Source: Cupriavidus taiwanensis | Lineage (GTDB): Bacteria > Pseudomonadota > Gammaproteobacteria > Burkholderiales > Burkholderiaceae | Length of the DNA stretch: 64,000 nt | NCBI RefSeq assembly: GCF_900249755.1 | Contig: NZ_LT976853.1 | Location: 803,142 to 867,141 of the forward strand | Direction: 5' to 3' | Shown here: one piece after another, positions 7,526 to 10,671 of the stretch | Numbering within the stretch: position 1 is the stretch's first letter | Layout of the letters: each line of letters starts with the position of its first letter | Position numbers and translations under genes: made by a program | The notes under the pieces: generated by a model | The model's input: the letters and a program-made list of their open reading frames with translations, nothing else | Databases searched by the model: none | What the model was told of the DNA's origin: nothing

Positions 7526-8484
7526 GCCTGCGCTCCGTCGCGCTTGCCGCACATCGGGAAGCCGAGGGCTTCGCGCGAGTCGTAGTAGGCCTGCGCCACC
7601 AGGCGCGACAGGTTGCGGATACGGCCGATATACGCCGCGCGCTCGGTCACCGAGATCGCGCCGCGCGCATCGAGCAGGTTGAAGGTGTGCGCGGCCTTGA
7701 GCACCTGCTCGTAGGCCGGCAGCGCCAGGCGCGTGCCGGCGTCTTTGCCGGAGTCCTGGCCAGCGTCGGCGCCTTCGCCATTGCCCATCAGCCGCCGCGC
7801 CTCGCCCTCGTGCTCGGCGAAATGGCGGAACAGGATTTCCGTGTTGCTGTGCTCGAAGTTGTAGGTGGACTGCTCCACCTCGTTCTGGTGGTACACGTCG
7901 CCGTAGGTCAGGCGGCGGGTCTCGCCGTTCTCGACCCACTCGGTCCAGACCAGGTCGTAGACGTTCTCGACCTTCTGCAGGTACATCGCCAGACGTTCGA
8001 TGCCGTAGGTGATTTCGCCGGTGATGGGCTTGCAGTCGATGCCGCCCACCTGCTGGAAGTAGGTGAACTGGGTCACCTCCATGCCGTTGAGCCAGACTTC
8101 CCAGCCCAGGCCCCAGGCGCCCAGCGTGGGGTTCTCCCAGTCGTCCTCGACGAAGCGGATGTCGTTCTGCTTCAGGTCCAGGCCGAGCGCCTCGAGCGAG
8201 CCCAGGTACAGCTCCAGGATGTTCTCCGGCGCGGGCTTGAGCACCACCTGGTACTGGTAGTAGTGCTGCAGCCGGTTCGGGTTCTCGCCGTAGCGGCCGT
8301 CCTTGGGCCGTCGCGACGGCTGCACGTAGGCGGCACGCCACGGCTCGGGGCCGATCGCGCGCAGGAAGGTGTGTACGTGGGATGTGCCGGCGCCGACCTC
8401 CAGATCGATGGGTTGCAACAGCGCGCAGCCCTGCCGGTCCCAGTAGGCCTGCAGGGTCAGAATCATTTGTTGGAAGGTCAGCAT
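7522..8484 (-). CDS. glyQ: Glycine--tRNA ligase alpha subunit
   Basis: Class II catalytic alpha chain that forms glycyl-adenylate. It has 320 residues, close to the roughly 300 of the family. The N-terminus [20 protein letters not shown], the [19 protein letters not shown] region and [20 protein letters not shown] are hallmark sequences. A short Gly/Asp insertion (about residues 230-245) makes it slightly longer than E. coli GlyQ. I start at ATG 8484, where homology begins; the upstream frame is Cys/Ala-rich filler. It is the first gene of the glyQ-exported protein-glyS-gmhB-plsC run. Confidence 0.97.
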
Positions 8485-8876
8485 AGGAAGACTAGGTAGA
8501 GGCAAGCGGAGGCAAGCCGAGGCCGCGCAGCACGTGCCGGAGCCGCCGCATACGGATTTTGCCAAACCCTGAATTCTATCGGCTTTTTGGCGCGGCGCCC
8601 CGTTTGGCGGGGCTGCATGGGGCACGCACCGATGGCCGGGCCGGCGCGCGGCGGTGCGTCAATGTCGGCCCGGCGCAACGCCTCGGGAAAATACTGACGC
8701 GGATTTCAAGTCCCGCCGCTGCTTGCCGATAACGTTTTTGTATACAGTATGAGTAAGCAACCCGTTTCAGAGCGTTGCGATTGACATTCCGTGCCGGTAT
8801 GCAGGCACGGCGGCTCCCGGACCGTACCGCGGCAGCCGCTCGTCAGATATTGAATAGTGATGGGGACATACGGATC
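8485..8876. other. Intergenic region upstream of the small peptide gene: divergent leader
   Basis: This 392-base stretch separates glyQ (minus) from the small peptide gene (plus). Besides the LexA-like site it holds a 5' leader of about 125 bases with a CGTGCC/GGCACG hairpin at 8790-8809 and a TTGACA hexamer at 8781 that lacks a good -10 partner. An in-frame ATG at 8799 could extend the peptide to 56 residues. No other gene is convincing. Confidence 0.5.
8732..8749 (+). promoter_or_regulatory. Putative LexA-type operator upstream of a small membrane peptide gene
   Basis: Read on the minus strand the site is TACTGT-N8-ACGTTA. One half matches the LexA consensus (TACTGT...ACAGTA) exactly and the other differs at two positions. 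The same local sequence (a TTGCC hexamer, a T-rich run, then TATACAGTA) occurs in the recA promoter of this window at 30145-30174. Together these suggest SOS control of whatever is transcribed rightward from here. Binding is inferred from sequence resemblance only. Confidence 0.5.
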
Positions 8877-8969
8877 ATGGCACTTCTTTCTCGCAAACCT
8901 TACCTGGTCGCAATCGCGGTCATGATCGCCGCGGCCACCGTGTCCGTGGCGACCGGACTGCTGAACTGA
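8877..8969 (+). CDS. Putative 30-residue single-pass membrane peptide, possibly SOS-controlled
   Basis: The frame MALLSRKPYLVAIAVMIAAA continues to a short TVSVATGLLN end. A basic SRK cluster precedes about 20 uninterrupted hydrophobic residues, the architecture of a one-helix inner-membrane peptide. GGGGA at 8862-8866 is a plausible ribosome site, ten bases from the ATG. The gene sits alone on the plus strand between two minus-strand operons, 128 bases downstream of the LexA-like site and followed by two GC hairpins. Size, hydrophobicity and position recall SOS-induced membrane peptides such as E. coli TisB, but there is no sequence match I can name. It could also be a non-toxic small membrane protein or spurious. 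Confidence 0.5.
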   Translation: MALLSRKPYLVAIAVMIAAATVSVATGLLN

Positions 8970-9054: not shown

Positions 9055-10671
9055 TCAGCCGGCCCGGCGTTCCCCGCGTTTTCGGCGCGCGCGCCACGCC
9101 GCCATCCCCAGCACCAGCGCAACCAGCGCCAGCACCGGCGCATTGCCCCAGCGGATATAAGGCGTCAGCCCCTGCATGCCCTGCACCTCGGCCGTCAGCG
9201 TGCCGACGGTGAAGGTCGGCAGGCGTTGCTGCACCGAGCCGTCCGGGCGCACCACCGCGGTCATGCCGGTATTGGTCGAGCGCAGCATCGGCCGGCGCGT
9301 TTCCAGCGCGCGCATGCGCGAGATCTGCAGGTGCTGGTCCAGCGCGATGGTGTCGCCGAACCACGCCAGGTTGGTCAGGTTGGCCAGCAGGTTGGCGGGC
9401 GCCGGCTGCTGGCGCAGCGTCTGCGCGATCTCTTCGCCGAACAAATCCTCGTAGCAGATATTGGGTGCCACGCGCACGCCCCGCACCGGCAGCGAGTCCT
9501 GGTCCAGCCCGCCGCGGCGGAAGTCGCCCAGCGGCATCTTCATCATGTCGACGAACCAGCGGAAGCCCAGCGGGATGAATTCGCCGAACGGGACCAGGTG
9601 ATGCTTGTTGTAGCGGTACAGGCGCTCGGTTTCCGGGCCCAGGCCGAACACGCTGTTGGTGAAGTCGACCGGGGAATCGGCGCCGGCGGCGCCGAACAGC
9701 ACCGTGGTGCCGCTGCCCAGCGCGTAGTCGCGCACGGCGATGGCCACGTCGACCGGCAGCTCCTGCAGGATCACCGGGAACGCGGTTTCGGGCGTCACCA
9801 CCAGGTCGGCCGGCGCCGCGGTGATCATGTCGCGGTACAGCTCGATCGAGCGCTGGATGCCGGCGGGCTCGAACTTGATGTCCTGCGCCACGTTGCCTTG
9901 CAGCAGCCGCACCGTCAGCGGCTTGCCCGCGGGCGTGGTCCACGCCAGCGGCGCCAGCGCCGCGCCGGCGGCGGGCACCAGCAGCGCCAGCGCCAGCGCG
10001 CCCAGCGCGCGGCGCCGCTCGCCCCGGCCGAATCCCCGCACCGCGGCCGCCAGCAATGCCGCCACCGCGGCGGCGAGCGCGCCGATGCCGTACACGCCCA
10101 GCACCGGCGCGAAGCCCGCCAGCGGGCCGTCGGCGTGGGCATAGCCGCCCGACAGCCACGGGAAGCCGGTGAACACCACGCCGCGCAGCCATTCAGTGAG
10201 GCCCCACGCGGCGCCGAACGCCAGCGGCGCCAGCAGCGCGCCGGCAGGCAGGCGTGACGTCAGCCGGTGCCACAGCGCGCCGGCCAGCGCGGGATAGAGC
10301 GACAGGAAGCCCGCGAACAGCACCACCGCCAGCGCGGCCATCCACGACGGCATCTCGCCGTACACGTGCATGCTGATATAGAGCCACCAGATGCCGGACA
10401 GGAACCAGCCCAGGCCGAAGGCATAGCCGATGGCGCCGGCCGCGCGCGTGCGCGGCGCATCGGCGATCAGCGCGGCCAGGCCGGCCAGCGACAGGATCTG
10501 CAGCCACCACCAGTCATGCGGGGCGAAGGCCTGGGTATGGGCGATGCCGAGCACGCCGGCCAGCAGCAGCCGCGCCAGCGTCGCGGCGCGCGAATGCGCG
10601 CGCGTGCCGGGCACACCGGCAGCGCCGGCGTCGGCAGCGGCGCCGTTGGGGAGCGGAGCGGGAAACTTCAT
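9055..10671 (-). CDS. lnt: Apolipoprotein N-acyltransferase
   Basis: Transfers the third acyl chain to the N-terminal cysteine of lipoproteins at the periplasmic face of the inner membrane. The 538-residue protein has six or more N-terminal membrane segments and a C-terminal nitrilase-like domain. The catalytic triad is visible as Glu (VVTPETAFPV, about residue 295), Lys (RYNKHHLVPFGEF, about 356) and Cys (NICYEDLFG, about 406). A final membrane helix and a basic tail close it. The start overlaps the corC stop (ATGA), so it is coupled to corC as in many proteobacteria. Confidence 0.97.
   Translation of the reverse strand: MKFPAPLPNGAAADAGAAGVPGTRAHSRAATLARLLLAGVLGIAHTQAFAPHDWWWLQILSLAGLAALIADAPRTRAAGAIGYAFGLGWFLSGIWWLYISMHVYGEMPSWMAALAVVLFAGFLSLYPALAGALWHRLTSRLPAGALLAPLAFGAAWGLTEWLRGVVFTGFPWLSGGYAHADGPLAGFAPVLGVYGIGALAAAVAALLAAAVRGFGRGERRRALGALALALLVPAAGAALAPLAWTTPAGKPLTVRLLQGNVAQDIKFEPAGIQRSIELYRDMITAAPADLVVTPETAFPVILQELPVDVAIAVRDYALGSGTTVLFGAAGADSPVDFTNSVFGLGPETERLYRYNKHHLVPFGEFIPLGFRWFVDMMKMPLGDFRRGGLDQDSLPVRGVRVAPNICYEDLFGEEIAQTLRQQPAPANLLANLTNLAWFGDTIALDQHLQISRMRALETRRPMLRSTNTGMTAVVRPDGSVQQRLPTFTVGTLTAEVQGMQGLTPYIRWGNAPVLALVALVLGMAAWRARRKRGERRAG

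Follow-up and report, generated by a model that had tools for sequence, protein, structure and literature searches.

A short genus-specific membrane-peptide gene between glyQ and lnt in Cupriavidus and its candidate sigma-28 promoter

The stretch of Cupriavidus taiwanensis DNA considered here, termed the window throughout, comprises 64,000 nucleotides, and all positions given below are counted from its first letter. Within a minus-strand region of the window, glyQ (minus strand, ATG at 8484) and lnt (minus strand, stop at 9055) are separated by a gap of 570 bases. The question raised by this locus is whether the gap holds a gene of its own and, if so, by which signal such a gene would be switched on. 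A first-pass annotation had proposed that it could hold a small membrane-peptide gene under SOS control; the gap size given there was borne out.

The small gene and its peptide

Two features of the gap are required to describe the gene itself:

8877..8969, plus strand: gene for a 30-residue membrane peptide, MALLSRKPYLVAIAVMIAAATVSVATGLLN
8862..8867, plus strand: ribosome-binding site GGGGAC, 9 bases 5' of the ATG

At all 57 genus loci that were fetched, one per genome, the frame is intact and lies between glyQ and lnt on the strand opposite to both. The ortholog set consists of the 56 loci that were parsed by script, while the 57th, which has His for Arg, was judged by eye. GGGGA[CT] stands at most 22 bases from the ATG in 53 of the 56 orthologs. 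For codons 1-24 of 47 distinct sequences, pN/pS was 0.24, with pN below pS in 1079 of 1081 sequence pairs, and the variable columns numbered 12, 7 and 22 at codon positions 1, 2 and 3, respectively. The small frame is under purifying selection. Because it is intact and syntenic at 57 of 57 loci and has a pN/pS of 0.24, the 30-residue frame is a genuine gene that has been conserved, and a chance ORF is excluded; conservation among close relatives, which the first-pass annotation had named as the point to check, was thus found.

The distribution of the gene was derived from searches of DNA and of protein profiles. The DNA search of 60 genomes gave matches in 35, including 33 of the 36 genus genomes in that set, and the promoter and the frame emerged from it as separate conserved blocks. 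The profile search of 398 genomes of the family gave a single match in each of 57 genus genomes. In total, the gene is present in 57 of the 60 genus genomes examined, and those without a match are G012 (54% complete), G415 (78% complete) and G396 (420 contigs, 6% contamination), G012 having been covered by the DNA search only and the profile search having had two other matchless genus genomes. Three profile hits outside the genus (E 0.002-0.009) lie inside frames of 378-938 residues and were taken as chance. No credible homolog outside the genus was found in the searches made, which by profile extended to the 398 family genomes. At 20 loci of other genera no peptide-like frame was seen by eye among those printed for the glyQ–lnt gap, and TGTATACA was absent from it; lnt was within the fetched stretch at 18 of these 20 loci, its match starting at most 320 bases from glyQ in 14 of the 20 and 225-258 bases from it at the seven loci with the closest glyQ (genera g28 and g48). 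A scan of named genomes, made with two short peptide patterns only, confirmed seven loci, six in genomes titled Cupriavidus and one in 'Burkholderiaceae bacterium 16'. As far as searched, the gene is genus-specific.

Genes so short are often missing from annotation. Three fragments of the peptide matched no text in the literature searched, and among the matches listed for Cupriavidus literature on FliA, start sites, small proteins and LexA the gene is absent from titles and from the openings of abstracts. The main text of a study of C. metallidurans start sites contains neither 'lnt' nor 'glyQ' and does not name the gene (PMC9045368), and no such gene is named in the orphan-TSS section (3.2.6) of a paper on C. 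metallidurans CH34 (PMC7563307).

The orthologs encode a peptide of 27-30 residues with one helix and, with few exceptions, the core M[AST]LLSRKPYLVAIAVM. Charged residues are absent from positions 9-26 in 54 of 56 orthologs, and an acidic residue (D or E) occurs in none of the 56. Since an Arg-Lys pair precedes the helix, the positive-inside rule suggests that the N-terminus is cytoplasmic (N-in). Small residues are conserved in the helix and suggest packing against a larger membrane protein, although both this partner and the effect on it are speculative. Searches of Pfam, NCBIfam and PHROGs gave nothing above cut-off for the window peptide, a consensus-like form of it matched TIGR02811 at E 0.015, below cut-off, and among PDB chains none was convincing for the window peptide (best E 0.44). 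As a proposal of a hitherto undescribed gene for a one-helix membrane peptide in the Cupriavidus lineage, the first-pass annotation therefore stands, in that the gene is conserved in the genus, carries its own conserved upstream block and is apparently undescribed.

The upstream block and a candidate sigma-28 promoter

The block conserved ahead of the gene can be divided into four elements:

8683..8697, plus strand: imperfect dyad TCGGGAAAATACTGA (in some other species TCGGGTAAATCCCGA), a candidate regulator site whose centre is 48-50 bases 5' of the predicted start
8706..8710, plus strand: predicted -35 of a sigma-28 (FliA) promoter, TCAAG, assigned by pattern match, likeness to E. coli flgKL and ortholog tally
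8725..8732, plus strand: predicted -10 of the sigma-28 promoter, GCCGATAA, assigned by ortholog tally and from the fliC promoters of the genus
8735..8748, plus strand: almost invariant TTTTTGTATACAGT, core of the supposed LexA site, at the predicted transcription start (about 8738-8740)

What is kept upstream is TCAA-N15-GCCGATAA at 8706-8732, which has the form of a sigma-28 (FliA) promoter, the published consensus being TAAAGTTT-N11-GCCGATAA (PMC2859248). The window sequence TCAAGTCCCGCCGCTGCTTGCCGATAAC has the same boxes and spacing as the FliA site of E. coli flgKL, given as TCAAGTCCGGCGGGTCGCTGCCGATAAT (PMC4183435), and is identical to it in 21 of 28 letters. The commonest form at the end of the conserved block is T[C/A]A[A/G]-N15-GCCGATA-NNG-TTTTTGTATACAGT, and the window site at 8706-8731 agrees with T[AC]AA-N15-G[CT]CGATA. 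Among 55 orthologs the -35 reads TCAG in 26, TCAA in 20, TAAA in 6 and TAAG in 3, and the -10 reads GCCGATA in 41, GCCGTTA in 5, ACCGATA in 3, GTCGATA and GTCGTTA in 2 each, and GCCGACA and GACGATA in 1 each. TCAG, the commonest -35 variant, is a weaker box; the FliA sites of E. coli include TCAA (flgKL, fliL, modA), TTAA (ycgR), TAAG (trg) and GCCGACA (aer) (PMC4183435).

The agreement was compared with chance in several ways. TMAAG-N14-GYCGWTA occurs once in the 64-kb window against 0.02 expected and in 2 of 100 shuffles, and a TMAA-N15-GYCGWTA site is held by 2 of 5000 shuffles of the gap, these strict patterns being the consensus combined with features already seen in the window and in the fliC, flhB and receptor promoters. 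The strict pattern, drawn after the window had been seen, fits 23 of 56 orthologs, and the loose pattern T[ACT]A[AG]-N15/16-[GA][ACT]CG[AT][TC]A, drawn after the orthologs had been seen, fits 55 of 56 against 97 of 22400 control windows. Genome-wide, TMAA-N15-GYCGWTA has 12 sites against 14 for the reversed control, and because they do not exceed that control this count alone is no evidence. Nine of the 12 precede a gene, namely fliC, flhB, a TarH-type receptor, a CheW-receiver (CheV-like) protein, a DUF3391/HD-domain protein, a protein with a sub-threshold FlxA match, the peptide, metK and an S11 peptidase; the remaining three lie inside frames of at least 300 residues, one of them (L234) also 41 bases 5' of an unidentified 230-residue frame. 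The fliC loci of the genus carry TAAA-N15-G[TA]CGATA in 31 of 31 cases (GTCGATA in 29, GACGATA in 2). Of 14 receptor loci, seven have a sigma-28-like site that agrees at 10-12 of 13 positions and lies close to the start of the frame, in some cases within the frame itself; the other seven have no site reaching 10 of 13.

Some of these sites merit mention in their own right. Those before the DUF3391/HD-domain protein (L235, G000:C1:1945133) and the CheW-receiver protein (L238, G000:C2:1839947) mark candidate FliA targets, and those before metK (L144, G000:C1:481752) and the S11 D-alanyl-D-alanine carboxypeptidase (L124, G000:C1:1642943) are perhaps due to chance. At L129 (G000:C2:746550-746575, minus strand) a sigma-28-like TCAAGTTCCGCACGAACCTGCCGATA stands before a protein of 159-173 residues, whose FlxA match (E 0.0076) is below cut-off and one of 19 weak hits; flxA of E. 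coli is FliA-dependent (PMC4183435). In the window itself, TAAA-N15-ACCGATAA at position 2321 and the next 26 bases, minus strand, lies about 18 bases 5' of a glyoxalase-family frame and may be chance. A further conserved block at 8560-8601 (minus strand AAAAAGCCGATAGAATTCAGGGTTTGGC), which shows up when 33 genus loci are aligned, is perhaps the glyQ promoter.

Two genomes of the genus, G266 and G023 (100% and 97% complete; loci L166 and L029), have no FliA above cut-off and no flagellin; in both the peptide gene is intact and the start element is kept. The -10 is GCCGACA in G266, which is also the -10 of E. coli aer, and GTCGTTA in G023, as in the FliA-bearing G345. Considered as a natural test, the loss of FliA was uninformative. 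FliA control of the peptide gene is probable from these likenesses and not proven, because two FliA-less genomes keep the gene and 26 of 55 orthologs have the weaker TCAG.

The dyad upstream of the predicted -35 recurs as GGGNAAA[TC]NC, unchanged in position, in all 56 parsed orthologs. Its half-site pairs are complementary at 5 of 5 positions in 8 orthologs, at 4 of 5 in 25 and at 3 of 5 in 23, the window being among the last. With at most one mismatch, TCGGGNAAATNCYGA has 13 sites in the genome against 2 in the reversed control; two of the 13 belong to one rRNA-like stretch (by eye) and most others lie inside frames, and no clear regulon could be discerned. At E. coli aer, transcription starts 6 bases past the -10 octamer, and CRP centred at -49.5 activates the sigma-28 promoter (PMC2859248). 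Applied to the window, the same rule would place the start at 8738 (8740 if the next purine is taken) and the dyad centre, 8690, at -48 to -50.

Across the predicted start lies TTTTGTATACAGT (8736-8748), the most invariant stretch of the block. Eleven of its 13 columns are identical in all 56 orthologs and the other two are 98% and 95% conserved, column 8735 following with 89%, and TTTTG[TG]ATACA is found in 56 of 56 parsed orthologs. The genome contains one exact copy of this element and one more with a single mismatch, at the recA LexA box. TTTTGTATACAGT falls outside the sigma-28 explanation; candidate roles for it are a second -10 of the housekeeping type, an operator and a functional 5' RNA end.

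The promoter could accordingly be of the housekeeping type, with TACAGT (8743-8748) as its -10 and no -35, and activated by a regulator on the dyad, which would then lie at about -65; the GCCGATA block would be part of the regulator site and FliA would be uninvolved. A position of -65 is usual for an activator. Class I CRP sites, for instance, are centred at -61.5 (PMC2859248), the most invariant TTTTGTATACAGT includes a passable -10, and it is TTTTGTATACAGT that the FliA-less genomes retain. Nevertheless, a standard scan of the gap for sigma-70 promoters and terminators found neither, no conserved -35-like letters stand 16-18 bases 5' of TACAGT, and the sigma-28 match would be left as a coincidence, including the GTCGATA and GCCGTTA variants that also stand before fliC and flhB. 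A promoter of this kind is a possible explanation that we regard as unlikely.

The leader and the LexA-like site

Beyond the start element, the leader has one further feature:

8757..8778, plus strand: 5'-leader hairpin GCAAC...GTTGC, directly after the start element, with stem letters that vary and pairing that is mostly kept

The structured leader of 125 bases described in the first-pass annotation did not hold up as a whole: the predicted fold of 8740-8900 is no more stable than that of shuffled sequences (z 0.41; 135 of 200 at least as stable), and comparative support is confined to the short hairpin. In 20 representatives taken from the 56 orthologs, 83.3% of cells were paired against 75.1% in shuffled alignments and covariation was 0.291 against 0.170, with 0 of 500 shuffles as high on either measure, in a test where relatedness alone can beat shuffles. 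Slid controls gave 19-42% paired. Four pairs were changed on both sides, no more than shuffling gives (260 of 500), and RNAalifold yielded just -0.5 kcal/mol. Fold energy was unremarkable: the mean z was -0.29 for the 5' window (48 distinct sequences) and -0.59 for later leader windows (27), and the distance from TGTATACA to the ATG ranges from 63 to 152 nt across the orthologs. By eye, the hairpin loop often contains CAGA.

The RNA itself might be conceived as the main product, a sigma-28-dependent sRNA of dual function whose fixed, single-stranded 5' GUAUACAGU and hairpin regulate motility genes while its frame makes the genus-specific peptide; if true, one flagellar-class transcript would tune motility at two levels. 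The almost invariant start-site letters and the covarying hairpin immediately downstream of them are in keeping with such a role, and sigma-28-dependent sRNAs are known (PMC10578931). However, in 245 kb of the genome's own DNA (flagellar and chemotaxis loci and the window) the complement ACTGTATAC occurs at its own site only, and shorter forms of the complement come near a frame start only at the recA LexA box. The complement of GUAUACAGU was set aside as a target site, none standing in front of genes within the 245 kb examined. Moreover, the remainder of the leader is unconserved, no terminator-like site was found in the gap, and the locus has no Rfam match, the Rfam search being also the one made for an antisense RNA. 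A dual-function RNA at this locus is quite improbable.

The LexA-like site of the first-pass annotation, TACTGT-N8-ACGTTA, lies at 8730-8749 (minus strand TACTGTATACAAAAACGTTA). Sites with at most three mismatches to the LexA box are expected 3.0 times per window and were found twice, the other being the perfect recA box, and in the whole genome CTGT-N8-ACAG occurs 23 times against 16 for the reversed control. A LexA matrix was built from 13 AT-rich perfect boxes of the source genome, including those before recA, lexA and a uvrD-like gene (names by eye). On this matrix the window site scores 11.0, the second-best score in the window after recA, and 33 orthologous sites score -0.7 to 17.4, all under the 13 boxes at 20.5-31.3, a comparison in which a matrix made from perfect cores favours perfect sites and penalises imperfect ones. 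The half TGTATACAGTA is a perfect half-site. Just one of the 56 orthologs reads CTGT at the second half-site, where the variants include ACGT in 17, CCGT in 8, ATGT in 6 and GTGT in 5. The one exception, L167 (G303), is the sole ortholog with both half-sites; its TACTGT-N8-ACAGTT is a full box that, by its letters, could bind LexA, and its near relatives have CCGT. L015, L031 and L033 differ in half-site spacing, the last two having lost the good half as well. The LexA character of the site is weak, and the conserved block is, judged by its motifs, a better fit to sigma-28 than to LexA.

A structured leader is a feature of tisB; the leader here is variable in length and sequence. TisB requires K12, Q19 and a C-terminal lysine, its helix bearing the charged or polar K12, Q19 and D22 (PMC11449926). 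A membrane toxin of the TisB kind, under SOS control through LexA repression at 8730-8749, is hence very improbable, the size of the peptide, the one perfect half-site, the matrix rank after recA and the full box of L167 being outweighed by a second half-site confined to that one ortholog, scores below every genome box, altered spacings, the variable leader and a helix that is uncharged in 54 of 56 orthologs and free of acidic residues in all. Because the sequence upstream of the gene is more like a sigma-28 promoter than an SOS switch, a small protein linked to motility is a likelier product than a toxin of the DNA-damage response.

Proposed role and comparison with known systems

Overall, the explanation that we favour, with modest confidence, is a genus-specific one-helix inner-membrane peptide whose gene has a sigma-28 promoter at 8706-8732, is expressed alongside the flagellar and chemotaxis genes and may act by modulating a larger membrane protein. 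Conservation of the gene, purifying selection on it and the conserved block upstream are the observations from which this account proceeds. Sigma-28 recognition, the start site and the topology are inferred from motif and peptide likeness. FliA would switch the gene on together with the late motility genes through the promoter at 8706-8732, and a dyad-binding protein would probably tune this promoter, helping or limiting it, much like CRP at E. coli aer. The transcript would begin at about 8738-8740, its 5' end being approximately GUAUACAGU followed by a small hairpin, and translation would proceed from the GGGGA site. The resulting peptide of 27-30 residues would enter the inner membrane with its Arg-Lys N-terminus in the cytoplasm. 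More speculatively, its conserved small residues could pack on a larger membrane protein of the motile cell, such as a receptor, stator, export or c-di-GMP protein, and modulate it. The locus would offer a clean case of a lineage that possesses a membrane micropeptide of its own and has apparently placed it under an existing flagellar regulon, and the tempting SOS and persister reading is corrected.

Among known systems, TisB/istR-1 of E. coli (PMC11449926, PMC8145889) resembles the present gene in its length of about 30 residues, its one hydrophobic helix and its own promoter. In contrast, the LexA box is found here in 1 of 56 orthologs, the leader is unconserved, the helix lacks the charged residues and the glutamine on which TisB depends, and the peptide gene is single-copy in 57 of the 60 genus genomes examined. 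TisB is comparable in size only.

On the side of the promoter, flgKL of E. coli (PMC4183435) shares both boxes and their spacing with the window, whereas TTTTGTATACAGT at the start site lies outside the sigma-28 consensus. The activator position of -49.5 at aer (PMC2859248) is close to the -48 to -50 of the dyad, but the dyad is not a CRP site. The sigma-28-dependent sRNAs MotR, UhpU, FliX and FlgO of E. coli (PMC10578931) are, like the transcript proposed here, transcribed under FliA in addition to the classical structural genes. Those are UTR-derived RNAs, whereas the RNA here carries a conserved peptide frame.

FlgV is a small protein. It is described as a membrane-associated flagellar accessory protein, and flgV belongs to a flagellar superoperon and is broadly conserved (PMC11607428, PMC10655999). 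Compared by description only, FlgV resembles the proposed product in being a membrane-associated flagellar accessory protein (PMC11607428), while the peptide gene, unlike flgV, stands alone between glyQ and lnt and is specific to its genus.
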